A stretch of DNA of 64,000 bases from Antedon mediterranea. Lineage: Eukaryota > Echinodermata > Crinoidea > Comatulida > Antedonidae. The notes beneath the pieces are model-generated. The model was given only the letters and a program-made list of their open reading frames with translations. It searched no databases and was not told the DNA's origin. Where the stretch lies: the NCBI RefSeq assembly GCF_964355755.1, contig NC_092670.1:30119795-30183794 (forward strand), written 5' to 3'. Of the stretch, positions 1,274-38,965 are shown piece after piece. Positions within the stretch are counted from its first letter, which is position 1, and every line of letters begins with the position of its first letter. The position numbers were made by a program, and so were the translations under genes.

Positions 1274-4200
1274 TGATTTGAGCTGGAACTATCTAACAGC
1301 ATTGGGCGACTGGCAACTACCTTCAGTTAAAAAAATAATAATAAACAAAAATAGTATTCAACGCATCTCAAAAACAGTCTTCGCCAATATATCATCCCTA
1401 GAAATGTTGTAAGTATAAATTAGTTGGAAAATATGTTTGGTGTCAATAGACGGTTAATAAATTAAGATTAAAAGAGGTAACATTAATTTAATTTGTAAAT
1501 AGATAACAAAAGGAACGATGGTACTTTGGTTGTCTATGTTTTCTAACATGAAAATCAATGACAATAATTTTTCTTTAATAAGACATAGGCCTATCATTTT
1601 TGGTAGACTTAAGAATGATCACATTCAGATTATTAAATTCTAAATTTCCAATTTCTTTTTACTATGCAGCAAATATTGAAGATGCATTTGTTATGTTAAA
1701 GTTGAAGTCATATTTTAGATAATTTTAGGAAATTTATAATCTATATTATATTATTCATTTTTTTACAGATGCGGATATTAGTGATTCATTTATTTTCTTC
1801 CTCATTTTAAAGTTCAAAACACTATTTTATTATTTTTGTCTTATTTATACATATTAGCTTAGATTTATAAAACCAGAGGACGCACACGCATCGCTCGTTC
1901 ATTTGATTTAGATCGGGCGCCCGTAGAATGTATTTATGTGAAAAGCCACAACAGGTTTGATGGGATATGATTATGTATATATATGGCTTCAATAAGATTC
2001 AATAATCAATATTGCTGCCAGCTCGTATCCTGTAAATTTTCCCTGGGACACCAAATAAGGAGGGATAAAAAAATTGATTTAATCATGTGAAAAGCCACAC
2101 GGATAAAAGTTGTTAGACATTGTCCGCATATGTGTATAGAATGTTAAAACAGCAATGACAGCAACTTTATCCTGAAAGTTGCCCGAAACAGTAGCCCAAA
2201 GTGACCACTCAACAAAAATGGTGTTATTCATGTCAATAGCCACACGGCTAATTCTTTTTGCATTGTAACTGTTACACATTACATTGTTGGGGTGCACAAA
2301 AATACCATTGACAGCAACTTTATCCTGTAAGTTGACACAAGACACTCTCTTCTTTGTCTGAGGATGGTCTTATACCCATTTCTTTGTCTGTGGATGGGCT
2401 TATACCTCTTTATTTGTCTGTGGATGGTCTTACACCCCCTTCTTTGTCTGTGGATGGGCTTATACCCCCTTCTTTGTCTGCGGATGGTCTTACACCCCCT
2501 TCTTTGTCTGTGGATGGTCTTACACCTCCTTCTTTGTCTGTGGATGGTCCACCATAAGTTAAATATTTAATCAATGGACCCACTACTTTGATTTATTAAA
2601 TCAGACATTGTTCTTGTATGATTAGAAGACTAAGACCTTCAAAGTGAAAGTCCACATGTGGATGCATAAAATGTTTTTGTATAGAACAGTATATTGTAGG
2701 TCCATGTCACTCATTTGAGGATTACTCGAATAATTACTTATTGAGATGTCTTTTACGAATTGATTTGGTTTGGATTTTGCTGAAAATCAATGATTAGAGA
2801 AAATCGAGGAAAAGGATTCTGATGAAAGGTTTACAGCAAGGGCCCATTACCATAAAAATGGAGTACAATTTGTTAGATGCAACAAAAATTAACAAGAATT
2901 ATCTGAGTTTCTGACAAACTGTAGTAAGGACTTTGAAAGACGGTGTTTTTTCAACTCATGAAAATGAGAACTTCCCGACATCAAAGAGGCCAACGAAAGA
3001 ATGTCACTTTACATAAAAAATATTTACAAATGGCATCTAATGATTGACACATTACAGTTTACAAAACAAGTCGGTATAGATGAGTCAAAATGTAAAAAGG
3101 TATATATACGAAAGAATCATTTATACACAGGCTAAGATGGGGACATAATAATAATAATAATAACAATAATAATAATAATATTTATAATAACATATGCAGA
3201 AGCATTTACAAGATGGGGATAGAAAGGGAAAGTTGATGGCAATGGATTTGTTCCCCACTGATCATCTTCCAGAAGTGTCGAAAGAATGTTGAGACCTGCA
3301 AAAGTTTGGATGGAAGATGTATGCATAAAGCCTAACTGTTCTGTACATCACTAGTTCCTATGTGGATGTATCCTGATTGTAAGAACTGAGATTACTGTTT
3401 CTCAGTGATCTGTAATACTTTACGCCTATCCTATCACATCAAAAGTCCAAAATTCAAAATAATAATTCCTGGTCATTTTTGCATGAAGTGTCATTTATTT
3501 CGGTTAAAGAAATTAGGTGCATTTATACCAGTGTAAACCAGACACAGTATGTTCACATAATTATATAGGTACGTTATACAAGTTATATCTGGTCATAAAT
3601 TGTATTTCCCGTCATTTTATGTGAAAATGTTTTATTACTACAAATATAAATGTCTCTATTCTGAAATCGATTGAAAATGATCAGTAGTTATTGAGAAATA
3701 CAAATAGGTGGTCAAATGTAAAACTGGAAGAAACGTCATTTCCGGTCATTTTTTTTTACAAAGCTTTTCATTAGAACAAAGAGAAATATGTAGTTTGTAA
3801 ATAATTTAAAACCAGAATCAAGTCTCTACTGTTTATAGTTGCCAAGACACTTTTTGTTTTTATGGTGGCCATTTTGAAATCAAACCCGCCATACCGGACG
3901 TTGGACACTTGGCACCCCCCGATATTTTGAATCTATATACATCAAAGAAACTTTGTGGCAAGTTTCATGCTTTGGTAATAAAATGCACAACTTGGATAGC
4001 TATTTTTATGGCGTTAACTGCTCTACTAACTGTTTCGGGCAACTTACAGGATAAAGTTGCTGCCATTGCTTTTTTAACATTCTATACACATATGCGGACA
4101 ATGTCCAACAACTTTTATCCGTGTGGCTTTTCACATGATTAAATCCATTTTTTACCCCTCCTATTTGCTGTCCCCAGGGAAAATGTTTACAGGATATGAC

Positions 4201-7200
4201 CCGGTAACAATATTGGTTATTATTAGCCATATATCTACATAATCAGCCCATAATACCTTTTGTGGCTTTTCACATGAATAAATTCTCTGAGTGCCCGGTC
4301 TAATTACTTTTTCTGTTAATTATATACGGTTTTCCAGCAAAATATTTTGATTTATGAATACATTTTGATTGACTTGATTATTGATTTTTCTACGATTAAA
4401 ACAAGCAATATTCAATAGTAATGTTGGCTCCAACAGCAAATTACTGTCTATAGAGCACCAATTTAGAGGTAAAATACGGACGTAAGTTGAATGTTACCAC
4501 CTGACAAATTTCGATTGAACATTTCTAATGTTGCCGTTCTAACAGACAAACAATGTTATGGAACAATGTTACTATTACAATTGTACAATAAATTGATCAT
4601 ATACCATTCACGGAAGATAAAATAGGATAAATAGAATATGACATTGAAGACAGTTAATTATTTTAATGCATTTTACATGACTCTCTTAGAATAAATAATA
4701 ATAATGATGATGATGATGATGATGATGATGAAGATGATGAAGATGATGATGATGATGATGATGATACATTTTAAGCAAATGGCAATGCAATTCTCATAAA
4801 ATAATATATTATAAAGAAAATACTGTAAGCGTTACCTTTAAATGTTGGCTTAGCATTTAGGCCTAGCCTAGCTAAGCACACTTGATTCAAGACTTAGAGT
4901 GTGTGCCTTGATCGCAATTAGTGGGCCTAGGCTACCTATAGGCTAGATGGGTACTGGTGAACTCGTATTCAAACTAACTCGTAGGTCTACCCATGCAAAC
5001 TCGTACCCAACTTAGCTAATTCGTACCTCAATTAACTCGTATCCACACCAACTTGTACCTAATCATTTTAAACTTTTTATGCCAGCACCATTAGTTTCGA
5101 CTAAGATTTGCCTGTATAACAAGTTAGACTGATGTGAATTACGACAGATTTGTAAAAAAAATTGCTAGACTTAGGCCTACTCGCTATGACTAAGCCTTAC
5201 TACTCTATGAGCCTAGCTAGTGTTAGGCATATTGGCTTAGTCCAAATGCTAAGCTGAAAGTTTAACGGTAAGGTGTACTGTATTTTTCTTTATGATTTTT
5301 ATTTATGTATCAATACGTATTCACATCGACCTAAGAAATACTGTATATATTGTTTCAGAATGCTTATAGGCAACAATATTACTTTTATCGAAGAAGGGGC
5401 ATTTAGTGGAACTAATCTTCGTTTACTGTAAGTCAGTTGTATACATCATTTTCTGAGCTATGTATTGTGCTATTATAGAACTACGTTAGGACAACGTTAT
5501 CGTGTTTATTGTTGACATATATTACTTTTATCATGTAAATTGGTTTTCCAAAGTCAAAACAGAAACACTAGTTACATTTGTTTCCCTTCATTTTTTTTTA
5601 GATTTCTTTATGGGAATGGAATTACAAACATTTCATATGAGACATTCAAAACGAATGGCACAACGCTGGAATACGTGTAAGATTGTGTACTACTGTACTA
5701 ATGTAAAACAATAACGAACCGTTTGTTGAAGTTTAATATATAGCATACATAACATAACGTTTGTGTATTTTTTTACTAATTGATATTTATATATATAAAA
5801 AACGGATAAAACGGTTTTATTTCCATTATTTTTAGATATTTATTTAACAATAAGTTAAACAAGATCGGAGAAAATGCGTTGTCACAAATGGTCGAAAATG
5901 GAACAATGTACGTTGACCGGAATGTTTTTTATTTATTTAGAAATTATGATAATATCATTCTTATTATATTTGGAAAAATAGTCATCTTTGTCATATAGAT
6001 GAGTGGAAATAGATGAAAAATAGGCGCTGAGTCAAACAAATTGCAACAGTTTGTTTTTTTGCTGAAATATGCTCAACTATATGTAGATATTATCATATCC
6101 AAAATCTACCCTGATCTGCCCATTATAAATTACCTAATTTGCATAAAATCAAAATGGCTGCCATTTTACAACTTTGATCCCAATTATCTCTTAAACCATA
6201 AAGAATTTGGTATAAGAATGTATTGAACACAAATATAAACATGACCCCAAAGATTCAGAGTAATATATTTGATTTGTCTTTGGGGTCAAGGTCAAAGGTC
6301 ATTCCAGTTTGACATCTAAATTATGCAAATTATCTCTTAATCCATTAGGTATTTTGAATAAGAATGTTTAAGTACAAATATAAACATGACCCTTAAGATT
6401 CAGAATAGCACATTTGATTTTTCATCTTACCCTGGGGTCACTGGGTCAAATGTCACAATATAAAAAAATTCAAATTATCCTTTAAATCAATTTCCATAGT
6501 AGTCTTACTACTACTAAAAACATAGCATATACAGTACAGACATTGCAGCAGATTGATGTCTGCACACTGCGCCCACACCCCTCCCACCCAGAGATTACTA
6601 GGTCAATTTAAAAAAAAAATAGTTTATTTATAAATATTATAACTACTAAATGTACATAGTATCAGTAGGTAATTTACTTTATACCATACAGTATAGCTTA
6701 TTTTGACATTTACTTTTACATTTAGGCATACCTACTTTAGTAGACCTACAAAGCTTATAAGCTTACATTTCTGAAACATTGGTCACAAAAATGTCTAAAT
6801 AATTCTTGGGTCGGACTCGATCGTCAATGGAGTTACTTTTTAAGATGTTTTTGCCATATTCTGGACAATTCTCGCTTCACTGAGAATTAATTAGTAAAAT
6901 TACGTCAGAGTAGACCAATAAACTTAGCTTTCTGATAATTAGTAATTTAAATTAGGCCTATCATCTATCATTTTTTTTAAAATCAAATTATCTACAATTA
7001 AACTAAGCAACAACAGTTGCAAAGAACTAGTTTTGTTAATGTATACTTTAGTAAGTATCACAATGACTTACTGTCTTACTGTATTCATTACATTCTCGAT
7101 TGAAGCATCATTTTGCTAATAAAAGTATTAATAAATACTGTTACTTAATCCTAATATATACTGATACTTTAAAATGTTTGTGTTTAGATAAATTTTAACA

Positions 7201-10200
7201 TACAGTACACTAATGGTATTTAAATATGAATACAAACTACACTTGTTTTTAATGGCTGGATTTTTTTAAATTTTCATCCATCTCAAACTTAAAAATTTAG
7301 GGTGTTACGAAAGATTCTAATTTTTTTTTAATGTATCTTTATATTTGTGTCATTTGAGAGCAGAGGACTCGTTCTTATACTAAAGTAAACTATAGACACT
7401 TGTTCTAAAGATTTTTAGTTCACATAGTCTCTGTATTCTTAATACACAGAATATGTCATCTTTCACTTCTGCACCCACTTTGGTTAGTACAACTTAACTT
7501 TTTCCAATGTTAGGGTCAGGTTTTACTGTTTGAACCACATGACCTCCATTTTCACAGTTACAAATTTTGTAAGGGTAAAGGTGTTTCCAAACTTTCCCAT
7601 AATTTCAGTTTAAACACTTCACACAACCAGACAGGATTGACAGTTTTTGTGTGACATATTTTAGCATAGTGTTCTATAATCTAAAAAAAAAACCAAATAT
7701 AATAAATGTAATTCCTTACAATTAAAACACCTTTCCTAATAGTCTGATCCCTGAAGTTAACTCAAATGAGCTTTTCAAAATAAATATGAGTTGTTCATAA
7801 GTACATCATCCAAATTGAAATTAATTCACTTCATAATTAGAGTATTTTATATTGTAAGATAATGACATTTTATCTTGACCCAATACAAATCAAATGCAAA
7901 TCATAAGAACATATTATGTATATTTCTATTAAATACATTCTTGTTCAAAATACCTGATGTTTTGAGAGATAATTAGCATATTTTATATGGCATAATTAGA
8001 TGACATTTGATTTTGACCCCATACAACTCAATTGCATCTTTCTAAATACATAGGGTCATATTTATATTAAATACATTCTTGTTAAAAATACCTGATGTTT
8101 TGAGAGATAATTAGCATATTTTATATGGCATAATTAGATGACATTTGACTTTGACCCCATATACAACTCAATTGCATCATTCTGAATATTTAGGGTCATA
8201 TTTATATTAAATACATTCTTGTTAAAAATACCTGATGTTTTGAGAGTTATTTTCGAATTTTATATAGTGTAATTAGATAACCTTTTGAACCTTGAACCCT
8301 AATACAACTCAATTACTGTACATTATTCTAAACCGTTAGGGTCATGTTTAGGCCTATATTTGTACTATAGTTAAACATTCTTATTCAAAATACCTAATGG
8401 ATTAAGAGATAATTAGCATATTTTAGAGGCCATACTGGAATGACCTTTGACCTTGACCCCAAAGACAAATCAAATACATTATTTTAAATCTTTAGGGTAA
8501 CATTTATATTTGTACTTATACATTCTTATTCAAAATACCTAATGGATTAAGAGATAATTAGCATATTTTAGATGTCAAACTGGAATGACCTTTGACCTTG
8601 ACCCCAAAGACAAATCAAATATATTATTCTGAATCTTTGGGGTCATGTTTATATTTGTGTTCAATACATTCTTATACCAAATTCTTTATGGTTTAAGAGA
8701 TAATTGGGATCAAAGTTGTAAAATGGCAGCCATTTTGATTTTATGCAAATTAGGTAATTTATAATGGGAAAATCAGGGTAGATTTTGGATATGATAATAT
8801 CTACATATAGTTGAGCATGTTTCAGCAAAAAAACAAACTGTTGCAATTTGTTTGACTGAAAAGTCTAATTCCACTCATCTAATATGTTCCAATCAATATT
8901 TTACAATTTGCCAACCATGTGTTATTTATACTTAACTGCAATTCACTTATTCTTGTCTGTATTCAGATATCTTAACTGTGGTGGACTCAGGTCAATTCCT
9001 ACATACATTGGAAAACCCGTTAAAACGTAAATAGTTGAAATACACATTTCATAATGACAATATAATATATTAGGTTACGTAGCCTAACAGCACAAAGAGG
9101 GTTTCATTTTTGCAAAATTGGTGAACTGTTTTTACCAGCAATGATTTTCGATCTGATCTATTAATACATAATTCATCTTTTAACGTTAAGTAAAAGAACA
9201 GAATGTATGTAGCTCTTAACTGTATTATTTTCTAGTGTTTGTGTTACAGAAGATACAGAAATCGATATAAGCATTGGAGGGGAGTTATTAAAGTTCATTG
9301 GTAGAGGAACTGGATTATCATGTAATGTGAAAACCGACAAATGCAGTCCGTGCAAGGAAGGGACATACAAGATATGTAATGAACACAATGGTATCTGTCT
9401 AAAGTGCCCTCCAGGTAATGTATGAACGAGATTAGGGTTTCTAGAAAACTCAGATCTAGAAAACTTAGATCTCAGATATATCTGAGTTTTCTAGATCTAG
9501 AAAACTCAGATATCTGACTTTTCTAGATCTAGAAAACTAAGATATCTGACTTTTCTAGATCTAGAAAGCTCTTATATCAATATCTGAGTTTTCTAGTTCC
9601 AGAATGGAACTAGACAACTCAGATCATCAAATGATTGGTTGGTAGGTCATTTGGATCATTCTATTATTAATCTGAAGGTCATTTGAAATACTAGAGTATT
9701 ATTAAAACTGATTACTGTGTACGATTTTTTATTAATATTGTAACATGTAGAAGCGGCCTACGGCTTAAATTATAAAGAAAATACAGTGCAAGTTACCGTT
9801 AAAATGTAACCTTAAATATTAAGTATGTACGAGTTGGTTGAGATACAAGTTAACCAAGTTGGGAATAGGTACGAGTTATTTTGGGTACCAGTTAACAACG
9901 TCTAGCCTAGTAGGGTCAAGCCTACTCTTCGTGATACATCGCGATAGCGCCCAAACGTTGAGCCTTGAATTGAGTTTGCTTAGCTAGGCTAGGCCTAAAT
10001 GCTAAGCCTACATTTTAAAAGGTGTATACTATATTTCTTTATGATTTAAGTCGTAAGCAGCTACTACAAGTTACATAGTACAAGTATAGTATTTCAAACA
10101 AGCTACCCTCTGATTAATAATGGAACGATCCATTTGATGATCTGGGGTTTCTAGTTCCATTTTGGAACTAGAAAACTCAGATCTTGATATCTGAGTTTTC

Positions 10201-12466
10201 TAGATCTAGAAAACTCAGATATATCTGAGATCTGAGTTTTCTACACACCCTGGAGATTATCATTATTTAATACTTTTCCGATAATTATTTTGTATTTATA
10301 TTACGTTATTCTGCTAAACATTACGTCTTTACCACAATGTTACAAGTATAATTTTTGAATGCTATCACATTAATCATTGCATTTTTAGTGAAAATTATGT
10401 TTTGCAATGATCATCTACAGGCTAATAATAATATGAATATGATTAGTATTAATTAATTATAACTATAGAATTATCAACAGTGGCTGTTATTTCTGGATTA
10501 ATACTTCTTTTCAGGTGGCTTCTATCAAGATAGAAGAGGAGTTATTGAGAGGAACAATTATACAGAAACCTGCAAACAATGTCCTATTGGAAGTTTCTCT
10601 AATCATGCAGGAGCAGCGTCCGTTGCCGATTGCCAGACGTGTCCATCTGGAACCAATACCAGTACATTTGCTAATCTAAACGCTTGTTATTGCCTTGATA
10701 ATTTTCATAGAACTGATCGTTTTGGCCGATGCTTTCCATGCCCGGAGGGTGTTACCTGTAACGGAGGGTATCAAAATCTAACAAGGGGTTACTGGTGGTC
10801 GTGGGATTTTTCTGTTGATTGTAATGTAGTTGAAGATAAAAGCAGAAGCTCTTGTTTAATGGCGTACACCAAATTTATAAACAATTTACAAAATGACAAT
10901 TTTCCCGTTGAAAATCCAAGCATACTAAAAGATGATGTATACACAGGTCCGTTACCACAAGTACATATGTGTCCACTAGGAGAAAAGAGTTGTGCTGTTG
11001 GATTGAAATTAAATGAAACCTGTGCCGAAGGATACACTGGTTGGCTTTGTGCTGCATGTTCAAACGGGCATTATGAGCTATTTAACACATGTCATAAATG
11101 TCAAGGACCAGTTGTGACTGTAGTTATATTTCTCAGTATTTCCTTGGCAATAGTTGGATTGATTGTCTTTATATGGAGAATGCAGAAAAGATATGCAGAT
11201 AATCAAAATTTTAAAATAGATTCATTTGTAACGTATATAAAAATAGCTATTAATTTTTATCAGGTTTTAGGAATACTATCAGAAGTAACAGAAATTCATT
11301 GGCATACTAATTTTGAGTATGTTGGCCAAATCCTTCAGTACTTCGACGTCATAAGGTACATTAGTATGTTAAGTCCAAGATGTTTACATGAATCTTGGAA
11401 TGCGTACTCGTCACTTCTCTTTGCTATGGCTACACCACTTGTCATAGTGGTAATTATGTCTACCATTTACGTTACTCTGTACATCTGGAACAAGTTTCAT
11501 GACGTAGTAATGGGGAGCCACGTGCGCGACAAATGTATCGTTATGTCGATGTTGCTTCTTTACCTTACATATGCAAACACATGTGCAGATATTATGGCGG
11601 TGGGACCATGGTCTATTCGTGTATTCGACGTTACATCAAATGGTACAGTAAAAAAATCAGTACTAACATCAGACTACTCAATTGATCTGGATGAAAATGG
11701 TGGATCCACATATCAAATTAACAAAACACTTGTCTACGTTGGGTTATCATACATCGTTGGTTTTCCATTGGTCATAGTTCTTATGTTATACTATTATCAT
11801 GTACGTTGTTATCAGCATAACGAAACCCACGTCAACGGATGGATGATTGGTGTGCAGTTCTTTTGTGGACAATATAAACATACATTTTGGTTTTGGGAAT
11901 CATTTGAGCTGTACAACAAGGCTATGTTGGCATTAATTGCAAACTTAAGAGATGACGTATCTTCAAGCCTATCTTACTCTCTCTTTTTCACTGTAATCTT
12001 TATTGTATTACATTTATATCTGGAACCAATGAAAGTGAAATCTGAACACAGGTTTCAACAGTTGACACTTACCTTCATCGTTGTCAATTTATCCATTGGT
12101 GCGATTGTAAACTTGGACCAGAGGGGTAATGGAGATAACGTCATCGAATTACTTCACAAGATTACTCCAATCATTCTACTCATGCTGAATGTGTCTATCA
12201 TGCTTGTCGTAATTGGTAAGATATTTTATAATAAGTAAGTAAGCAAAGTTACTTTGATAGTTAGGATTTTGTCAGCTAAAACTGTTGTGTTACGTAGGGA
12301 CGAAGGGTCAAATCTTTGATTAAAATAGTTTTTTTTAGTAATGAAAATGTTTTTATTTTTAGTTGATTTTGTGAAGAAAATTAAAACGGAATGTTTCAGC
12401 CATGATGAACCAGTAAGACTCCTTCAAATCAGTAGTGATTATCCAGAAGAAGACGCAGATTGGTGA
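1274..12466 (+). CDS. Gene A: LRR / cysteine-rich / multipass membrane protein, 3' part (8 exons)
   Basis: Exons read by splice sites and phase: 1274-1408 (135 nt, two LRRs), 5359-5427, 5602-5676, 5836-5907, 8967-9026, 9236-9414, 10515-12215, 12363-12466. All early introns split codons after the second base, each donor is GT and each acceptor AG. The five LRR exons carry the LxxLxLxxNxI pattern. Exon 9236 begins the cysteine-rich module (CSPC, CPPG). The 1701-nt exon continues it ([25 protein letters not shown]), then encodes about 7-9 hydrophobic segments. The last exon gives a short tail ending ..EEDADW before TGA at 12464-12466. The ATG at 10859 lies mid-exon and is not the gene start. The 5' exons are not in the window. 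Every exon has a same-length partner in gene B except the last, which is 3 nt shorter. The family is uncharacterised to my knowledge; a cell-surface receptor role is inferred. Confidence 0.85.
2353..2550. repeat. 30-bp minisatellite, about 6.5 copies
   Basis: Units of about 30 bp follow the pattern ctttgtctgtggatggtctt plus acacccc. Because 30 is divisible by three, the array makes repetitive open frames on the plus strand (SVDGL-type peptide). These are by-products of the repeat, not a gene. It lies inside the 1.9-4.3 kb inverted-repeat element. Confidence 0.85.
3145..3187. repeat. (ATA)n microsatellite
   Basis: Imperfect ATA/ACA trinucleotide run inside the 1.9-4.3 kb element. Confidence 0.9.
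4698..4765. repeat. (GAT)n microsatellite
   Basis: About 22 GAT units with two GAA interruptions in a gene A intron. Confidence 0.9.
4810..5293. mobile_element. MITE, copy 1 (TIR ATAAAGAAAATAC)
   Basis: The left end ATAAAGAAAATACTGT and the right end rc ATAAAGAAAAATACTGT form inverted termini. Inner matches include a GTTACC motif and an 'aaatgctaagc'-type motif in opposite orientations. The interior carries degenerate tandem copies of an 'aactcgtacc' decamer. A second, shorter member with the same termini lies at 9772-10042, which supports calling this a family. Confidence 0.7.
5998..8879. mobile_element. 2.88-kb TA-flanked inverted-repeat element
   Basis: Both ends start GATGAGTGGAA in inverted orientation and are flanked by TA (5996-5997, 8880-8881). 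The terminal repeats run for several hundred bp, so the same 61-residue frame appears on the plus strand at 6041 and on the minus strand at 8661. The right half holds about six degenerate tandem units of roughly 100-150 bp (7870-8660), each with an 'attcttnttnaaaatacct' plus 'tgaccttgacccc' pattern. The left half holds two inverted counterparts (6230-6470). No transposase is seen. It fills the gene A intron whose gene B counterpart is only 107 bp, so the insertion post-dates the duplication or was lost from B. Confidence 0.8.
7870..8660. repeat. Degenerate internal tandem repeats of the 2.88-kb element
   Basis: Repeated blocks contain 'taattagcatattttatatgg' variants (abridged), an 'ttgaccccat'-type block and a 'tttatattaaatacattctt' block. 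Sequence drift between blocks suggests old expansion within the element. Confidence 0.65.
9424..10245. mobile_element. Foldback-like arms (agatctagaaaactcagat) around a nested MITE
   Basis: Arms at about 9430-9620 and 10125-10245 are made of repeated, self-complementary 'tctagatctagaaaactc' units and share 'tttctagttcca' / 'tggaactagaaaactcagat' in inverted orientation. The MITE at 9772-10042 lies between them. The whole block occupies the gene A intron 9415-10514; the matching gene B intron is only 264 bp, so this block accounts for the size difference. Confidence 0.65.
9772..10042. mobile_element. MITE, copy 2 (same family as 4810-5293)
   Basis: It starts ATAAAGAAAATACAGT and ends with ATATTTCTTTAT, inverted relative to the start. 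The tacgagtt-type inner motifs match the first copy. It is shorter, so internally deleted or a subfamily. Confidence 0.65.
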
Positions 12467-12779
12467 AAATGTATTGTGTATCTCTATTATATAAAATCTG
12501 AAGTAAGCCGCTTAAAACATTCTTTCTTTCGAAAACACCTATATCCATTCTTGCATGGCAGTACGATAAACCTGCACCCGATTCTGGATTTGATATTGAA
12601 TACACAGTTTACGTTATACCATGTCTTCACATACGATCTAATGACAGCGATATCGTGTATTAAAAGTACTTAATACAGTCAGATAGGTCTCTGGTAGACT
12701 GTCGACAGTCTTCCACACTGAGTGTACTAACAGCCACAGAATCGGGTTGTTTCAACTTAATTACCGTTGCTTAAAGAGA

Positions 12780-12785
12780 AATAAA
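12780..12785 (+). promoter_or_regulatory. Candidate poly(A) signal of gene A
   Basis: AATAAA lies about 315 nt after the gene A stop codon. It is the first canonical hexamer downstream in the sense strand that I noticed, in AT-rich sequence without other features. Transcript data would be needed to confirm it. Confidence 0.4.
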
Positions 12786-15739: not shown

Positions 15740-15746
15740 TATAAAG
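15740..15746 (+). promoter_or_regulatory. Possible TATA box of gene B
   Basis: TATAAAG lies 59 bp upstream of the predicted start codon at 15805. An imperfect palindrome (15765-15786, ggcggcctaggatcctagcc core) lies between the two. Position and sequence fit a core promoter only if the 5' UTR is very short and unspliced; transcript data would be needed. Confidence 0.25.
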
Positions 15747-15804
15747 AACACCGTATTAAGTCGAGGCGGCCTAGGATCCTAGCCGCATTTAAGTACTCCT
15801 GAAG

Positions 15805-27800: not shown

Positions 27801-30800
27801 ATCGTTTCAAATTAATTAATTAAATTTCAGTTTAGAATTACTGTTCTATGCCTTACACAGCAAAATTCTGATTCTTGTTTTAAGAAAAAAAAAACTTGTT
27901 TCAAGCAAAATATTTCTTGAAACAAGTAAATTTTGACTTGTCCGTATTTCAATACTTTTTGGCTTACCAAGAATCGTAAAATTCTTAACAAGAATCACAC
28001 AAATTCTTATCAAGAAAATTATTCTTACCAAGAAATAATACTTTAAGAACAATATTCTTACCAAGAATTTAATTGCTTTTTTCATTCTTGTTTTAAGCAG
28101 TATCTGCCTTAAAATAAGTAACAATTTATCGATTTTTTAAAATAGAATTCTTGTTTCAAGCAATATTTTTCTTAAAATAAGTAAGAATATTCCGATTTAT
28201 ATTTTTAGTTTTCTTGTTTCAAGCAATATATTTCTTAAAATAAGTAAGAATATTCCGATTTGTATTTTATAGAATTCTTGTTTCAAGCAATATATTTCTT
28301 AAAATAAGTAAGAATATTCCGATTTGTATTTTTTTGAATTCTTGTTTCAAGCAAGATATTTCTTAAAATAAGTAAGAATATTCCGATTTGTATTTTATAG
28401 AATTCTTGTTTCAAGCAATATATTTCTTAAAATAAGTAAGAATATTCCGATTTGTATTTTTTTTAATTCTTGTTTCAAGCAAGATATTTCTTAAAATAAG
28501 TAAGAATATTCCGATTTTTATTTTTTGAATTCTTGTTTCAAGCAATATTTTTCTTAAAATAAGTAAGAATATTCCGATTTGTATTTTTTGAATTCTTGTT
28601 TCAAGCAATATTTTTCTTAAAATAAGTAAGAATATTCCGATTTGTATTTTTTGAATTCTTGTTTCAAGCAATTTTTTTCTTAAAATAAGTAAGAATATTC
28701 CGATTTGTATTTTTTGAATTCTTGTTTCAAGCAAAATATTTCTTAAAATAAGTAAGAATATTCCGATTTTTATTTGTAGAATTCTTGTTTCAAGCAATAT
28801 TTTTCTTAAAATAAGTAAGAATATTCCGATTTGTATTTTTTAGAATTCTTGTTTTAAGCAATATTTTTCTTAAAATAAGTAAGAATATTCCGATTTTTAA
28901 TTTTAATATTCTTGTTTCAAGCAATATATTTCTTAAAATAAGTAAGAATATTCCGATTTGTATTTTTTGAATTCTTGTTTCAAGCAATATTTTTCTTAAA
29001 ATAAGTAAGAATATTCCGATTTGTATTTTTTGAATTCTTGTTTCAAGCAATATTTTTCTTAAAATAAGTAAGAATATTCCGATTTGTATTTTTTGAATTC
29101 TTGTTTCAAGCAATATATTTCTTAAAATAAGTAAGAATATTCCGATTTTTATTTGTAGAATTCTTGTTTCAAGCAATATTTTTCTTAAAATAAGTAAGAA
29201 TATTCCGGTTTGTATTTTTTAGAATTCTTGTTTTAAGCAATATTTTTCTTAAAATAAGTAAGAATATTCCGATTTATATTTTTAGTTTTCTTGTTTCAAG
29301 CAATATATTTCTTAAAATAAGTAAGAATATTCCGATTTTTATTTGTAGAATTCTTGTTTCAAGCAAAACTTTTTTTAAAATAAGTAAACAAGAAGTCTAT
29401 CAAATAAAAACCAGTAAATGTTTACTTATTTTAAGAAAAGTATTGCTTGAAACAAGAATTCTATCAAATTAAAATTCGTAAATTCTTACTTATATTGGGA
29501 AAAAAATTGCTTGAAACAAGAATTCTATAAAATATAAATCACTAAAAATTTATTTTAAGAACGATAAATGAATACTCATTTTAAGTAATATTTTACTTAA
29601 ACAAATAAATTCAAGAATGTTATAAAACATAATATTAACAATACTGTTATTTTCATTAAGAACTACAATTTACATGACATTAGGTACAATAATATATACA
29701 ACTTCTTTAAAACAAACTTGTTTTTATTAATAATAAAATGCCATCAAAAGAAAACTTAAAAACATTAAAATGGTAAAATACAAATTTCGTAAAATTCTTC
29801 TCCCGCACCTGGGCTTTAAACTATTAGGTGTCTTTAAATTTAATAATGTATACTAATGATGATTCAACAGCCTTTGTCAAGTGTACAGGTGTGTTTTCAT
29901 CACAAATCACTAACTGTTAAAGGATAGTGAGGCCTACTTCTTTTCATTTTGGATAATCGAAATCCAGAAGGTAAAAAGTGGAGAGGAGAGTAACTAGAGC
30001 CTCATCTAATTTTGCTTTCTTTGTAGTTAGAATTGTTTGCTAAACTTTAATGTAGGCCATTTCTGTGTCCAAAAGCAATACCGGCATATTACCTGATCGG
30101 CGTGAAGACCAGGATTCTGGATCTTTATTCATGTTCCTAAAAATGAAAAGAGATTAATATAGTTTTAGTTATTACTGTATTTAAAATATGTGTAACATCA
30201 TCAACTAATTGGGTACGGTGTGGTTTTAGAGTCCTATATCTGGGGCGGTAAACACAAAAACATGACGCAATATTAGAACGGTGGTAAGAATAATTTTACA
30301 TTATAAGACATAAGGGTGGGTGGAATATGCATTTGAACTTTTTAATCACAAACTTTGCCCTGTTTATACCGATCCCAAAGACAGGCCTGGCTGTATCTAT
30401 TATTTTTAGTTAAATTATTAGGGTCTAAATTTATTTTTAATATTACTATTTAGGCAAAACGGTGCTCAATCCTGATTGATGTTTTTATTCTGTATCAATG
30501 TTTATAATAACAATCATACAATTAAATGTAAATTTTGTTTAATTGTTTGATTTTAATAAATTATTGTAAACATAGTATATACCTCGAATTTTAAGCTAAG
30601 ATAAATTTGATTTTAAAAAAACACTTTAAGATATTTTTTTTTAATGTACATAATGTTACTTGTATTTTAAATTAAAAAAAACACTAAATACCTTCAAGGT
30701 CGGCAGACTTTTTTTGATGAGTTTTTCCCAACAAATATGTTTGACAGATTTGACAACATATGGGTTATCTTTGAACCTAACCAAAAATAACAAATTGAAA

Positions 30801-33800
30801 ACATTATATTATATAAATTTATTTAAATGAGTGGAATAATGTATGGACATAAACTTGATATACTGTAGCTCAAATTTTTAATAATGTAGCCTACAGTTTT
30901 GTAGGTGGTCAATGTAAAAGGAAGGGGAAAGGGTGGGCTGGCCAGGAGATCATTAATATGTCAAAAATTAATATTCATAAGTCATTTATTTAATTTTAGT
31001 TGTCAAAGGGAGGAGTGCATGACACTAGCTTGAGTCGAACCAAGCTGTTAAAAATACGTACACAATATGTACACGTATTTTCCTCACTACCATTGGTCCA
31101 TTATAAAAATATTTATGAATAAATAAAAGTACAAAAACATACACTGTACTTACCAGATGGAGGACTGGTGTTTCTCTTTAAAATACCAAAATAAACTATA
31201 TTATTCTCTTCTTTGGAAAAATTTGCTAAGCACTTTTTTAAAAAGCTTTCTTTTGTATTTCATTCCTCTTTGCCTAGTAATAATTAGTATCCTTCGAACT
31301 TCTTCAATTACCTAACAAATAATTTAAGATAAAAAAAGAAATTTAATATAACAATTTTAGTTATGCAGTACGTATGTTTTTTGTTTGTTTTTTTAGTATG
31401 TTTTTTTAAAAATTTAGAGTTAAAAACATTAAGTTTCAATATCGATGTGATCACTTCGGGGATTACTTAGTGTGTACAATTAATTAAATATAAAGAAGTG
31501 TTTTTAAATGTCATTATATTTCTCATTGGAATATGTGTATATAATATAATCCTTCGTAGATATTTCATGGCTACATTGCAAAATATTACTGTTACATTAT
31601 AATTGTATTATCTATTATTAGGCCTTCCTTATACCTAGCTGAAATAGGTCCGACAATATTTGTCCCCTCTGTCAATGTCTGAACTAAAATGCTAAGCTAA
31701 ACCTATACACCTGTCCGTCAGTACAGGCATAGTAGGCTAGCCTAGACCTACTAGTTCCAGGCCTACAGTATTACTAAATAGGAAGGAGCCTAGGCTAGGC
31801 CTAGACTGCTGGTAGATTAAAATATAATTATTAGGCCTACGAACCTGTTAAAATGTTGGCCACTTCTTCATCTATTTCTCGGATCTTCAACAAAGCGTCT
31901 TCCTTCGACATTATATTAGACTAATCTTACTAGGCCTATTGAAGCATTTAATATATAAATTGCGATGAAAGGTGTCTTTTACAGTACTTACAAACTCTAG
32001 ATTTTGAATGATTACTTTAAAAAACCGTTGGCCATGATCCCGCCGGGAGCTAGGTCATCGACCACACACAGTGTTGTTTTTCAACTATTATCGCTGGCCT
32101 TTTACCCAGAATGTATAAGGTCATTATACTGCTTAACGTTAAAGCATGGAGGTATAAACCTCCATGGTGGTTAAAGCAAATCTATAAAACGTCTGGACCA
32201 ACAGTAATACGACAGACAATAATAATGACACATGTTTGTTGCAGTCCAAAAAAAAGCGATAAGTTGGTGCCAGTAAACTGAAGTAGGTACAGTATTTGCT
32301 ACCCTATTTGCTAAGGCATTATAATTCAATTCATGGAAATACTCCGAATTTTCGAGTAACATGTGGAATTGGTGGTTCGCTGCCCGGCAAGCTTTGGAAT
32401 TTACAATTCGTTTTACAAGAATGTCATAAGACGCCATTTTAAGGACGAGTATAACAATCGGCAACCTCCTGCAGTTGACGATGGAAACATCAGTATATAA
32501 GTATGCCTGGAGAAAACGAGGATGCCAATTGAGGATGAAGTAGAACTAGGCCTAGACTAGGAGACTGACGAAGTTAATGAAGAAAAAAACTATTATAACG
32601 GGGATGATTTATCAACTGACGATAGTAGTAGTGATAATTCTAGTATTGTTATACTGTTAATGATTGTTTAATATTAATTATCTTGTTGATGCTCAGCAAG
32701 AAGGCCTACTAACTAGAGGATGAACAAGCAGATAATAGTATAAAAAATGCTGATTTCTTTCTACTAAAATTAAAGGAGAGAAACAAGATTCCACAGGTAA
32801 GCCATTTTGCTTTAAAATTACAACAATTATGCATTTTAAACTATTTTTTATTAGAGAAATACGTCTATTTCCTAGGCCTTGCTGGTACTGTTATTATACA
32901 GGACTATTAGCTATAGTAACTATAGGACTTGGGTACTAGGCCTAGGCATTATACACTCTAAGTTTATGTTGCATTTTTTTGTGACCAATTTCATTGTTAC
33001 AAATAACATTTTTTTTGTTAGGCTGCATAGCTCCCCAACTAAAGCACAACTTAGTTTTTAAACATATTAAAACTTGAATATAAAAAATATTAAATCAATA
33101 TTATTTTCTTTAGGTTGCAGTGCAATCGATTATTCAAAGCACAAACAGTTTGATTACCCAGATTCTTTCATCAGTTGAAACTGAAGTGCTAACTGCTCTA
33201 CCGTTGTGTGAATATAAGGATGACAATCTATTTTAAGTAAAACATTTCTCAAAATAAGTATTTTTCAGAATATTAAAATAGAATTGACTTCAATTCAAGC
33301 AAAAATAGTCTTGATAGGATATAGTATGATATTGACTTCTTATCTTAAGTAAAACATTTCTCAAAATAAGTATTTTTTAAAATATTGCGAATCTCAATTT
33401 AAGCAAAAATAGTCTTGATAAGATAGTATGATATTGACTTCTTATTTTAAGTAAAACATTTCTCAAAATAAGTATTTTAAAGAATATTGCGAATCTTGAT
33501 TCAAGTAAAAATAGTCTTGATAAGATAGTATGATATTGACTTCTTATTTTAAGTAAAACATTTCTCAAAATCAGAATATTGCGAATCTGAATTCAAGCAA
33601 AAATAGTCTTGATAGGATAGTATGATATTGACTTCTTATTTTAAGTAAAACATTTTTCAAAATAAGTATTTTTTAAAATATTGCGAATCTCAATTTAAGC
33701 AAAAATAGTCTTGATAAGATAGTATGATATTGACTTCTTATTTTAAGTAAAACATTTCTCGAAATAAGTATTTTAAGAATATTGCGAATCTTGATTCAAG

Positions 33801-36800
33801 TAAAAATAGTCTTGATAAGATAGTATGATATTGACTTCTTATTTTAAGTAAAACATTTCTCAAAATAAGTATTTTTAAAAATATTGCGAATCTCAATTTA
33901 AGCAAAAATAGTCTTGATAAGATAGTATGATATTGACTTCTTATTTTAAGTAAAACATTTCTCAAAATAAGTATTTTTAAGAATATTGCGAAACCTAATT
34001 TAAGAAACTTTGTCTTACCTAGAAAAATATTTATTGTTTTAAGTAATTTTTAGAATTCATCAATCTTGATTTAAGAAAAATTATTCTTGATAGGGATAAA
34101 TATAATATTGATTTCTTATTTTAAGTAAAATACTTTTCAAATTAAGTATTTTCAAATCTTGTTTTAAGCAAAACTATTCTTAATAAGAAGAGAATGATAT
34201 TGACTTCTTATTTTAAGTAAAATATTTCTTGTAATAAGCATTTTCAAGAATATTGCGAATCTTGATTCAAGTAAAAATAATCTTGATAAGGGTAGTGTGA
34301 AATTGACTTCTTATTTTAAGTAAAATATTTCTCAAAACAAGTATTTTCAAGACTATTGCGAAACCTAATTTAAGAAACTTTGTCTTACCTAGAAAAATAT
34401 TGATTGTTTTAAGTAATTTTTATAATTCATCAATCTTGATTTAAGAAAAATTATTCTTGATAGGGATAAATATAATATAGATTTCTTATTTTAAGTAAAA
34501 TACTTTTCAAATTAAGTATTTTCAAATCTTGTTTTAAGCAAAACTATTCTTAATAAGAAGAGAATGATATTGGCTTCTTATTTTAAGTAAAATATTTCTT
34601 GTAATAAGCATTTTCAAGAATATTGCAAAACTTAATTTAAGAAAATGTGTCTTTTCTAGAAAATTATTTCTTGTTTTAAGTAATTTTAAATCTTGACAAG
34701 AAAAAAAATACTTATTTTAAGAATTTTTTCTTAAAACAAGATTTTTTTTTCTTGCTTAGAATTTCAAATTTTGCTGTGTATGTAGAGAGATCTATTTAAC
34801 AATCAATGTTATAATTAGGTGATCATTTAGAATAAAATGATCTAATATCTCACAGCTTTTCAGAATTAAAGATGACATTAATTTTCATAAAATATTACGA
34901 AAGCTCATAAAATATAGATATGAATTCATATTCAAATTGTGCCTACCGGATGTAGTGGAATTATCATAATTATGGCAAGTTGAAGTTAAAAAGTAGTTTT
35001 TTCATCTATTTCGTCAAAGTTATACACATTTTAAAGAGCGCGTACAGCGCTTCTACGTGCCAAATTTTCTACCAAATCTTATATTTATTTGCTCAATTCA
35101 TTATCTTCCAAAATTTTCATCTTCAAGTTTTTTTTATAACGCCATCATACCAAAAAATTAGAACATGATGTGGGTCCCGTAATTTCAACTATGTTACACT
35201 ATATATAAATATACAGTATACTGTATATATTATGAGACATATTAGGCACAGACTATAAGCATACTATAATATGCATCAGGTCATAGGATGAACATTTTTA
35301 CGATCGTATTTTACGTACGTGGATGTTTTCTAAATATTAAATGTCAGTAAAATGATATAATTCGTCAAAGTGACAAATTAAATTCTAGTTAAACATTATT
35401 TTACCCAGTAAATTACAAATTCCATTCCATTCATGTTTTTTTTTTATTCAAATGGACCTAAGAAATATTGCATAATTTATGTTGTTTCAGAATGCTTATA
35501 GGCAACAACATTACTTTTATCGACGAATGGGCATTTAGAAGAACTAATCTTCGATTTCTGTAAGTCAGTTGTATAATTTAATTAGATCAACATTTTGTCG
35601 TTGTGTATCGTGTACGTTATCGTGTTTATTATTGGAATTGTTTACGTGTCTGTATCCAGTTAAAACAGAAACAAGTGAAAATTCAACAATTTTTTGTTTT
35701 ACTTTTCAGATTCCTTTATGGGAATAGAATTACAAACCTTTCGTTGGAAACACTAAAAACAAATGACATAACGCTGGAATTCATGTGAGAGTTTGATATT
35801 TTTAATGTAAAATAATGGCGAAAAAAAAAACAAACATGGCAAATCGTTTGTTACAGTGAAAATTTTATATTTTTATTTTCAGATATATTTTTGACAATAA
35901 ATTAGAAAAGATTGAGGAAAATGCGTTGTCACATATGGTAGAAAATGGAACAATGTACGTTGACAGGAATGTTTTTTTTTTTATTAATATATTATTATAA
36001 TACCATCCATATTATAACGTTAGCATCAATGTGTAATTCATTTAGTATTGTCTTTATTCAGATATCTTAACTGTGGTGGCCTAAGGTCAATTCCTACATA
36101 CATTGGGAAATCTGTTAAAACGTAAATATCATTTTAAAATACAATTGTGAAATGGATTGAATGCATAACTATAGAGTATAATAGGTCTATTACGTTACAT
36201 AGCCTAACATAGAACGTTTCAACTTTGCAATGTTGAACTGTTTTAACCAACATTAATTGTCAATATTGGGCATTTCCGGTATTTCTAGTGTTTGTGTTAC
36301 AGAAGATACAGAAATCGATATACAGATTGAAGGGGAGTTATTGAAGTTTATTCGCAGGGGAACTGGATTGTCTTGTAATTTGAAAACCTTCAAGTGCAGT
36401 CCTTGTAAGGAAGGGACATACAAGATATGTAATAAGTACGAGTTTAAATGTCTAATGTGTCCTCCAGGTAACGTACAGTGCAACTAACTTGTATTTGTCT
36501 TTTTTTTATTCATTATTTGCTCTAGTATTTTGATACTTTGCCAACAAATATTTCATCAATAATATTATACGTAACTGTGCAACAAACAAATATACGTTCA
36601 TGATAGAGTATTGTCCATGTATTTTTGTGCTACAATGATCATTTAAGTCAATAATATAAATACGAATATTTAGTAGAAATATACATTATCAACAGTATGG
36701 CTGTTATTTCTAGACTAATAATTCCTTACAGGTGGCTTTTATCAAGATAGAAGAGGAGTTATTGAGAGGAACAATTATACAGAAACATGCAAACAATGTC

Positions 36801-38679
36801 CTATTGGAAGTTTCTCAAATCATGCAGGAGCAGCGTCCGTTGCCGATTGCCAGACGTGTCCATCTGGAACCAATACCAGTACATTTGCTAATCTAAACGC
36901 TTGTTATTGCCTTGATAATTTTCATAGAACTGATCGTTTTGGCCGATGCTTTCCATGCCCGAAGGGTGTTACATGTAACAGAGGGTATCAAAATCTAACA
37001 AAGGGTTACTGGTGGTCATGGGATTTTCCTGTTGATTGTAATGTAGTTGAAGATCAAAGCAGAAGCTCTTGTTTATTGGCGTACACCAAATTTATAAACA
37101 ATATACAAAATGACAATTTTCCCGTTGAAAATCCAAGCATACTAAAAGATGCTGTATACACAGGTCCGTTACCACAAGTACATATGTGTCCACTAGGAGA
37201 AAAGAGTTGTGCTGTTGGATTGAAATTAAATGAAACCTGTGCCGAAGGATACACTGGTTGGCTTTGTGCTGCATGTTCAAACGGGCATTATGAGCTATTT
37301 AACACATGTCATAAATGTCAAGGGCCAGCTGTGACTGTAGTGATATTTCTCAGTATTTCCTTGGCAATAGTTGGATTGATTGTCTTTATATGGAGAATGC
37401 AGAAAACATATGCAGATAATCAACATTTTAAAATAGATTCATTTGTAACGTATATAAAAATAGCTATTAATTTCTATCAGGTTTTAGGAATACTATCAGA
37501 AGTAACAGAAATTCATTGGCATACTAATTTTGAGTATGTTGGCCAAATCCTTCAATACTTCGACGTCATAAGGTACATAAGTATGTTAAGTCCAAGATGT
37601 TTACATGAATCTTGGAATGCGTACTCGTCGCTTCACGTTGCTATGGTTACGCCACTTGTCATAGTGATAACCATGTCCACTATTTACATCAGTTGGTACA
37701 TTTGGAATAAGTTCCGTGGAATAGTAACTGAGAGCCACATACGTGACAAATGCATCGTTATATCAATGCTGCTTCTTTACCTTACGTATGCAAACACATG
37801 TGCTGATATCATGGCGGTAGGACCATGGTCAATACGTTTATTCAACGTTACATCAGATGGTAAAGTCAATAAAACGGTACTAACATCCGACTACTCAATT
37901 GATCTGGATAAAAATGATGGATCTACATATCAAACTAACAAAATACTAGTCTATGTTGCTTTATCATACATTTTTGGCTTTCCATTGGTAATAGTTGTTA
38001 TGCTATACTATAAACATGTACGTTGTTATCAGCATAGCGAAACCCACAGCAACGGATGGATGATTGGTGTGCGGTTCTTTTGTGGACAATATAAACATAA
38101 ATTTTGGTTTTGGGAATCATTTGAGCTGTACAACAAGGCTCTGTTGGCATTAATTGCAAACTTGAGAGACGACGTGTCTTCTAGCCTGTCTTACTCCCTC
38201 TTTGTTACGGTACTATTTACTGTATTACATTTATATCTTGAACCAATGAAGGAGAAATCTGAACAAAGATTCCAACAGTTGACACTTACCTTCATTGTTG
38301 CCAATGTATCCATTGGGGCGATCATAAACTTGGACCAGACTGACAACGGAGATGATGTCATCGAATTAATTCACAAGATTACTCCAATCATTTTACTTAT
38401 GCTGAATGTATCTATCATGCTTGTCGTAATCGGTACGTTATTTCAGCATAAGTAATGCCATAACAATAAAAAGTTACAATTTAGCCAAATACAATTGTCG
38501 TATTTCTTGCGTATGTACAAAACGCTCTGAATAAAATAGTTGAATTTTGATAACCTGCTTTTATATTTGTAGTTGCTTTTGTGAAGAAACTTAAAACGGA
38601 ATGTTTCAGCCATGAGGAGGAACCAGTAAGACTACTTCAAATCCGTGGTGATGATTCAGAAGAAGACGTGTATTGGTGA
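15805..38679 (+). CDS. Gene B: complete LRR / cysteine-rich / multipass membrane receptor-like protein (19 exons)
   Basis: Exons: 15805-16004, 17000-17071, 17292-17351, 18073-18141, 19103-19174, 19289-19357, 21114-21191, 24647-24721, 26249-26317, 26901-26972, 27191-27253, 27556-27690, 35491-35559, 35710-35784, 35883-35954, 36062-36121, 36289-36467, 36732-38432, 38573-38679. The total is 3297 nt, or 1098 residues plus stop. Residues 1-24 form a signal peptide, followed by a CxC...C LRR N-cap ending GLxxWPxGIP. Residues about 67-437 are some 16 LRRs, mostly one per exon with the same codon phase. Residues 437-695 are cysteine-rich, resembling GCC2/GCC3 ephrin-receptor-like repeats, and end [10 protein letters not shown]. 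The first membrane helix is at about 696-717, with 7-9 in total, then a 35-residue acidic tail. One donor is poor (GTTGGT after 24721). Introns 7, 9 and 12 hold large repeats. No kinase, TIR or GPCR signature is seen, so the signalling mode is unknown. An innate recognition role is only a guess. Confidence 0.85.
16091..16197 (+). mobile_element. Fragment of the 2.88-kb inverted-repeat element family
   Basis: This stretch reads like the terminus of the 5998-8879 element: a 'gatagaaatag' block, then 'tttttttgctgaaa', 'actcaactacatat' and 'cataaaatcaaaatggct'. Only about 100 bp is present, with an internal deletion. It sits in intron 1 of gene B and shows that the family is dispersed. Confidence 0.6.
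16827..16876. repeat. (ATA)n microsatellite
   Basis: ATA trinucleotide run with ACA interruptions in gene B intron 1. It creates the tail of a spurious plus-strand frame. Confidence 0.9.
17426..17957. mobile_element. Probable MITE with CTTTCAC / GTGTGAAAG ends
   Basis: The left end 'ctttcacgccaaaactccgc' and the right end 'ttgtgtgaaaggagtt' are imperfect inverted counterparts. 'actccgcag' and 'actccggagtt' motifs recur near both ends and at 17785. It lies in gene B intron 3. No clear target duplication was found, so the boundaries are approximate. Confidence 0.45.
19358..21113. other. Gene B intron 6, no coding content recognised
   Basis: Frames on both strands around 19430-19703 overlap each other and show no domain. 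I see nothing else here except the tRNA-like sequence at about 20041. Confidence 0.5.
20041..20125 (+). repeat. tRNA-like sequence (decayed SINE head)
   Basis: An A-box-like segment (agtggtctaatgg), a CTGC..GCAG anticodon-type stem around ATC, and a B-box-like GGTTAAATCTCGA follow in tRNA order. The B box deviates from GGTTCGANNCC and the acceptor arms do not pair, so I call it a decayed tRNA-derived repeat rather than a tRNA gene. Confidence 0.35.
21700..23734 (-). mobile_element. Non-LTR retrotransposon (LINE), internally inverted and deleted
   Basis: On the minus strand, 23734-23336 encodes a leader typical of these elements, with a basic patch and then the endonuclease start ([12 protein letters not shown]). 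23335-22890 continues the apurinic-type endonuclease (CFTETWL, then MGDFNH). 22595-21818 encodes the reverse transcriptase C-terminal half ([16 protein letters not shown] catalytic pair, KYLGMVID). Between these, 22620-22868 encodes the N-terminal RT part ([17 protein letters not shown]) on the plus strand. Stop codons and frameshifts are present. The 3' end is marked by a repeated 'actatgaacta' tail near 21700-21735. It lies antisense in gene B intron 7. Clade placement (Rex1/L2/CR1-like) is tentative. Confidence 0.8.
23740..24270 (-). mobile_element. Penelope-like element relic
   Basis: Minus-strand translation gives [10 protein letters not shown], then IDPSGNITF, then [20 protein letters not shown] and a GIY-YIG-type tail ([14 protein letters not shown], stop, DV) in the order seen in the better-preserved copy at 49-51.7 kb. 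The region that should hold the YVDD catalytic motif is scrambled, and several stops interrupt it. The plus-strand frame 23743-23931 is its antisense shadow. Confidence 0.75.
25036..25961. mobile_element. 0.93-kb MITE with about 215-bp terminal inverted repeats, TAA flanks
   Basis: The ends read TAGTGGGGTGCCTTA and its complement TAAGGCACCCCACTA, and the inverted arms extend about 215 bp through the 'gaactctgtacccctacc' region. TAA occurs immediately outside both ends (25033-25035 and 25962-25964), consistent with a 3-bp target duplication as in PIF/Harbinger elements. No coding capacity is seen. It lies in gene B intron 8. Confidence 0.8.
26395..26837. repeat. 44-bp minisatellite, 10 copies
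   Basis: Ten head-to-tail units with core tataattattggtgctacc plus agggctcagtc(a/g)cacaggtttatag. Units differ at only a few positions (agg/atg, cac/cgc/cat), so the array is young or homogenised. It lies in gene B intron 9, about 80 bp after exon 9. It has no spacer diversity, so it is not a CRISPR array. Confidence 0.95.
28141..29385. repeat. 63-bp tandem array, about 20 copies
   Basis: Unit words in order: gaattcttgtttcaagcaat, tttttcttaaaataagtaag, aatattccgatttgtatttt. The period of 63 is divisible by three, which produces two long repetitive minus-strand frames (28411-28797 and 28790-29176). I treat these as by-products. At 29400-29530 the unit reappears in the opposite orientation. 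Confidence 0.95.
31845..31911 (-). pseudogene. Possible first exon of a decayed gene carried by the 6.9-kb element
   Basis: An ATG at 31911 opens a short acidic/basic helical peptide ([20 protein letters not shown]) followed by a GT donor (31844-31843). A possible continuation at about 31320-31155 reads [20 protein letters not shown] before a stop. Another AG-bounded piece at about 30140-30090 could be a third exon. Codon-like character and splice signals argue for a degraded gene, but no family is recognised. Confidence 0.3.
32719..33236 (+). pseudogene. Spliced ORF remnant in the 6.9-kb element (two exons)
   Basis: Segment 32719-32796 ends CAG before a GTAAGC donor. Segment 33114-33236 follows a polypyrimidine tract and TTTAG. 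Joined in frame, they encode about 66 residues, including [15 protein letters not shown] at the junction, and end in TAA where the right tandem array begins. Upstream of 32719 the frame is broken by stops, so it is probably the tail of a decayed gene. The N-terminal part of the product is unidentified. A link to a transposon-borne protein is inference only. Confidence 0.4.
33237..34700. repeat. About 100-bp tandem array passing into 370-bp higher-order repeats
   Basis: The phrase 'gatattgacttcttatttta' recurs roughly every 100 bp from 33329. From about 33985 a longer block starting 'gcgaaacctaatttaag' recurs at 34358 (period 370). Antisense frames 33377-33568 and 33738-33965 are by-products of the array. 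Confidence 0.9.
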
Positions 38680-38952: not shown

Positions 38953-38965
38953 AACTGAATTTGAT

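Follow-up and report, generated by a model that had tools for sequence, protein, structure and literature searches.

The analysed window, a stretch of 64,000 nt of Antedon mediterranea DNA (contig NC_092670.1, 30,119,795-30,183,794, forward strand), carries two genes in tandem, here called A and B, both on the forward strand. Positions without a contig label are those of the window. Gene B extends from 15805 to 38679 (+) and comprises 19 exons. Splicing of these exons yields a CDS of 3297 nt including the stop codon, which is free of internal stops and encodes the product of 1098 aa expected from an earlier inspection of the letters and reading frames (the sequence-only reading). All internal exon boundaries carry AG at the acceptor and GT at the donor, the donor of exon 8 (GTTGGT) being weak. 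Exon 1 (15805-16004) encodes the leucine-rich repeat (LRR) N-terminal cysteine cap and the signal peptide that the same reading had named; the signal peptide is recognised by eye, and the cap matches the Pfam family LRRNT below its cut-off (13.5 vs 25.8 bits).

Exons 2-16 of gene B are LRR exons, all starting in phase 2. Exons 2-12 span 17000-27690 (exons 2-6: 17000-17071, 17292-17351, 18073-18141, 19103-19174 and 19289-19357; exons 7-12: 21114-21191, 24647-24721, 26249-26317, 26901-26972, 27191-27253 and 27556-27690), and exons 13-16 span 35491-36121 (35491-35559, 35710-35784, 35883-35954 and 36062-36121). Together, these 15 exons encode 16 repeats, and LRR_8 matches the ectodomain with 130 bits (cut-off 27, E 2.7e-38). 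The number of repeats and the shared phase thus agree with what had been proposed, except that exon 12 (135 nt) encodes a pair of repeats, which leaves 14 of the 15 exons with a single repeat each. Exon 17 (36289-36467) encodes a first cysteine-rich module, which matches Ephrin_rec_like and NCD3G below their cut-offs. It is followed by exon 18 (36732-38432, 1701 nt), which encodes a TNFR/ephrin-receptor-like cysteine region, a DUF7630 domain (37187-37318) and nine predicted membrane helices. Exon 19 (38573-38679) contributes a short tail, first basic and then acidic, that is predicted to be cytosolic, and the stop codon.

Gene A lies upstream of gene B and is present in the window from its 1274-1408 exon through its 12363-12466 exon, with exon order and phases as in gene B when spliced. 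The 1274-1408 exon, with two LRRs, is the equivalent of exon 12; the preceding 5' LRR exons were found in the DNA before the window, colinear with those of gene B. The equivalents of exons 13-16 span 5359-9026 (5359-5427, 5602-5676, 5836-5907 and 8967-9026), and that of exon 17, with the cysteine-rich module, is located at 9236-9414. The exon 18 equivalent (10515-12215) again combines the cysteine region, with DUF7630 at 10970-11101, and the membrane domain, and the last exon (12363-12466) encodes the tail. Gene A is a colinear tandem copy of gene B, as had been suspected from the common exon design, and the range 1274-38679 assigned to the pair runs exactly from the first exon of gene A in the window to the last base of gene B. 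A pattern coding for GWLCAAC occurs twice, and in none of 100 shuffles. That the exons of A and B exceed chance is best seen from their dN/dS values of 0.50 (0.35-0.72) for the LRR part and 0.21 (0.14-0.30) for the membrane part.

The two copies of exon 18 do not differ evenly along their length. Over the first 900 aligned nt only 22 mismatches separate them, but the following 799 have 105; this boundary was picked after inspection of the data. Among the equal-length exons of exons 2-17, 201 of 1289 sites differ. For the LRRs and the membrane domain, the synonymous divergence (dS) between A and B is 0.293 and 0.306, respectively; for the cysteine region it is 0.042. This pattern points to recent gene conversion over about 10515-11416 in gene A and 36732-37633 in gene B, a putative tract that covers the cysteine region and the first two predicted helices.

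The assembly searched for relatives comprises 354 Mb in 18 contigs, labelled C1, C2 and so on. Gene B exon 18 matches it in 45 pieces: 17 nearly full-length copies free of stops, and two divergent open copies on C3 and C4 (two pieces each); the remaining 24 pieces come from 10 places where the exon is broken or partial. Open membrane exons are therefore present at 19 loci on seven contigs (C1 seven, C10 four, C2, C5 and C7 two each, C3 and C4 one each). A genome search with DUF7630, which may miss weak matches, gave 20 matches at E<=0.001, all over the cut-off, namely the 19 open loci and one broken copy; at this threshold, the domain was found in the genome only within this LRR-multipass family. 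Searching with the member that diverges most led to 46 pieces, again only at places of the family. Exon-1-like matches were seen at no fewer than 18 places, including gene B, among the 86 of 213 candidates scored. For nine of the 19 genes (A, B, one on C7, two on C5, two on C10, and those on C3 and C4), the DNA upstream of the membrane exon was read, and all nine have LRR exons there, with the same phases and order in unlinked paralogues. One C5 gene has two copies of the exon 2-3 pair and the C3 gene has three, all of them in phase; the extra pairs could provide either a longer LRR array or alternative, mutually exclusive exons. A side result of the genome analysis is a match to the domain of bindin, an echinoderm protein, at C1:15552879-15553076 (-) with E 2.3e-28, in keeping with the echinoderm origin of the DNA; a COX1 search of the assembly gave no match.

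In a tree built from all 19 membrane domains, A pairs with B (100/99), the four C10 copies cluster with one C1 copy, and the C5 and C7 copies cluster with another C1 copy; the C3 and C4 members have long branches and are placed with uncertainty. These groupings across contigs imply that duplication has been both local and dispersed. Exon-18 fragments at C10:13732581-13910190 form three sets that match one another and lie 86-90 kb apart, which suggests repeated segmental duplication. Two of the C10 copies are identical but for one residue across the 14 LRR exons read, which shows that not every duplication diversifies. Some LRR exons were not found (14 in the C7 gene, 6 and 12 in the first C5 gene, C5a, and 5 and 6 in the second, C5b) and may have been lost or missed.

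DUF7630 (PF24633) is the only curated match in exon 18 of A and B, and it passes its cut-off barely (27.4 vs 27 bits). All 14 family members scanned match it at E<=1, but its extent is limited to 45 residues of the cysteine region, and no function is assigned to it. Ephrin_rec_like and a TNFR-like module match the same exon in A and B below their cut-offs, and at E<=1 they are seen in 12 and 10 of the 14 members, respectively. Unlike the proteins known for these modules, members of the A-B family are multipass, and neither a kinase nor an ephrin-binding domain was found in them. Ephrin_rec_like itself is described in PMC6993872 as an old eukaryotic domain of unknown function.

For the membrane domain, no Pfam match over the cut-off was obtained in the members tabulated, and the best match of three divergent membrane domains at E<=10 was DUF6297 (E 0.0041, 16.4 vs 29.8 bits). 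A profile match that would place this domain in a characterised family was sought and not found. A PDB search with a single protein returned weak matches only (TNFRSF21, Eph and two complex I chains; best E 0.15), and a profile search gave ten weak matches, nine of the TNFRSF21/Eph type and one to EIF1 (best E 0.029), none of them to a channel. Pattern matches in bacterial and archaeal genomes (59) and in viral contigs (469) included no confirmed relative. The searches of open-access literature turned up neither a paper on the family nor a function for it, in line with the sequence-only reading.

The number of membrane helices, first put at seven to nine, can be narrowed. Alignment-averaged hydropathy of the membrane domain has eight peaks, to which a conserved Trp-rich segment at about residues 459-477 may be added, giving nine helices. 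In the nine-helix layout, Lys/Arg outnumber Asp/Glu in all predicted inner loops and are outnumbered by them in all outer segments, and N-glycosylation motifs are mainly on outer segments. As this charge pattern is consistent with a Trp-rich ninth segment, nine helices with the N-terminus outside and the C-terminus inside are favoured, though not proven; an eight-helix alternative would put the tail outside. Five charged residues inside predicted helices (K242, E461, E464, K468 and H499) are invariant in the 14 aligned members, which reach down to 32% identity. Structure models made from only the two window copies were unusable, with a mean pLDDT of 32.0 for exon 18 (573 aa) and 38.6 for the membrane part (378 aa), and the roughly nine long helices in the latter model were given no weight for the fold.

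Whether the one-repeat-per-exon design belongs to a diversifying recognition family, as had been suggested, can be approached through substitution rates. Among A, B, the C7 gene and the two C5 genes, all ten pairs have dN/dS point estimates below 1 in all three regions, although the bootstrap interval of the A-B cysteine region and most of those of the C5/C7 pairs reach 1. The LRR part evolves faster than the membrane part in A-B, and the three C5/C7 pairs have LRR and membrane ratios without a clear difference. Within the LRRs, change is greatest at the putative concave positions. Concave, convex and core positions were counted from the start and end of each exon, not from a structure, and exons 7 and 8, whose start has one extra residue, were treated like the others. 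In six genes (A, B, one on C7, two on C5 and one on C10; three to six genes per exon), the mean pairwise difference is 0.535 at concave, 0.349 at convex and 0.108 at core positions, and a concave-convex gap at least as large arose in 2 of 10000 permutations of the labels. Neither this set nor the pooled dN/dS includes exons 3, 12 or 16, and exon 7 is in the latter only. Rows of unequal length were dropped from the permutation set (C10 in exon 6, A and B in exon 8, C7 and both C5 genes in exon 11), and exon 8 of the C10 copy is absent from it.

The pooled ratio at concave sites is about 1.03 (dN 0.206, dS 0.199), from small counts that are not independent because the pooled pairs have sequences in common; at convex sites, dN is 0.111 and dS 0.156, and at core sites 0.036 and 0.211. 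By pair, the concave ratios are 1.17, 1.09, 1.46 and, for C5a-C5b, 0.64, so that concave dN/dS appears to be about 1, not clearly above it. The word "diversifying" is therefore only partly borne out. It is favoured by the faster A-B LRRs and by the concentration of change at concave positions; the near-identical C10 copies, the similar ratios in C5/C7 and the homogenised first 900 nt of exon 18 in A-B speak against it. A faster-evolving LRR arm could also reflect relaxed constraint.

We hold with moderate confidence that A and B are echinoderm surface recognition receptors, built from an LRR arm, a cysteine stalk and a nine-helix body that signals by itself. Architecture and the pattern of change are seen directly in the genes; on this basis, the LRR solenoid would bind a ligand via its variable concave face. 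The TNFR/ephrin-receptor-like cysteine-rich stalk may then relay the event to the nine-helix membrane body. Because the predicted cytosolic tails of A and B are only 33-34 residues long and have no Pfam match even at E<=10, the membrane body itself would have to provide the output, most likely through a conformational change of the channel or transporter type, or else by coupling to a partner. The conserved charged residues in the predicted helices and the lack of a tail domain are the two grounds on which we infer such a channel or transporter output. New copies would originate from both local and dispersed duplication, with divergence falling mainly on the LRRs and gene conversion homogenising them in part.

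Echinoderms have large LRR receptor repertoires with TIR or NACHT outputs, and the copy numbers of their TLR and NLR genes are far above the count found for the A-B family. Both groups share LRRs, multigene expansion and ectodomain divergence with this family; in contrast, A-B members have a multipass body, and no TIR or NACHT was found in them. Toll-like receptor membership of A and B is likewise not indicated, given the multipass exon 18, the absence of TIR from the exon 18 scans and the short tails. An immune use of the A-B family is a guess by analogy that would fit the echinoderm LRR expansions, those of TLR, NLR and SRCR genes in the sea urchin being mentioned in PMC3308324.

A more far-reaching proposal is that the family represents a new class of directly signalling receptors, in which a diversifying LRR arm gates a nine-helix body whose fold is undescribed among GPCRs and TRP/polycystin channels, forming an echinoderm multigene family; this we regard as unlikely. 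If it were true, a variable LRR sensor on an uncharacterised multipass body would constitute a separate route from recognition to a membrane signal, and DUF7630 and its unnamed membrane domain would gain a function. The nine genes whose LRR exons have been read ease the design of ligand-face and expression tests.

Alternatively, A and B may be adhesion, gamete-recognition or developmental proteins instead of receptors for foreign ligands, with LRR divergence following subfunctionalisation, a possibility that we consider real if somewhat doubtful. Such a role would agree with an open set (19) that is small beside the echinoid TLR or NLR sets, with divergent single-locus members on C3 and C4 that look old and with the unchanged multiplication of some copies. 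However, the concave-face excess of change, the broken copies and the dispersal over several contigs fit a recognition family of the turnover type.

Two further proposals concern only the output and overlap with the surface-receptor reading. According to the first, which seems unlikely, the proteins would be channel subunits that resemble polycystin-1 or fungal Flc/TRP proteins and sense through their LRRs. In polycystin-1, too, LRRs are linked to a multipass domain; fungal TRP-like proteins probably possess about nine helices and a Trp-rich helix of similar kind, and the A-B family has an invariant Trp/Glu/Lys helix. On the other hand, the A-B family has more LRRs than Polycystin-1, and PKD repeats, GAIN/GPS, PLAT and PKD_channel are absent from the scans of gene B exons 1-18; no polycystin or TRP family matched the membrane part of the 14 members at E<=1 or of the three divergent members at E<=10. 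The fungal TRP-like/Flc profile (PF06011) does not match the family and has a single match in the genome, at another place (E 4.73; all four candidates scored); the fungal proteins are not known to have LRRs.

The second of these proposals, an LRR-bearing GPCR, LGR-like or of a divergent class, with G-protein output, appears improbable. LGR-type receptors share the LRR cap and the multipass domain with the A-B family, their genes also have phase-matched one-repeat exons, and the weak NCD3G match on exon 17 (E 0.12, 12.7 bits vs a cut-off of 38.9) is to a cysteine domain of class C GPCRs. This match is far below the cut-off, though, and no 7tm family, whether 7tm_1 of the rhodopsin type or 7tm_3 of class C, was found in the 14 members at E<=1 or in the three divergent membrane domains at E<=10. 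The cysteine region differs from that of LGRs, and the charge topology argues for nine helices, not seven. The earlier view that the C-terminal part is not a rhodopsin-type GPCR is thus upheld.

Finally, the idea that the gene models are decaying or spurious, stitched together from LRR-like exons, is hardly credible: ten broken or partial places in the genome, the weak exon 8 donor and reverse-transcriptase-like frames seen by eye in intron 7 of gene B (21818-23752) might suggest it, but A-B dN/dS lies well below 1 in both the membrane and LRR parts, and unlinked paralogues keep the exon design.

The introns and surroundings of gene B contain several further elements. A frame at 21821-22351 (-) in intron 7 matches ALKBH8_N with 27.1 bits (cut-off 21). 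Overlapping frames at 49268-51657 (+), which by eye resemble a Penelope-like element with a GIY-YIG end, include two that were scanned and had no Pfam match at E<=0.01. A frame with RVT_1 and RT_RNaseH, resembling the LTR-retrotransposon type, is located at 38954-40024 (+) and starts about 275 bp past the gene B stop. The intron between exons 12 and 13 contains long AT-rich tandem arrays at 28084-29387 and 33229-34645, with repeats of 63 bp x 20.6 and of about 102 bp x 7 plus longer periods.
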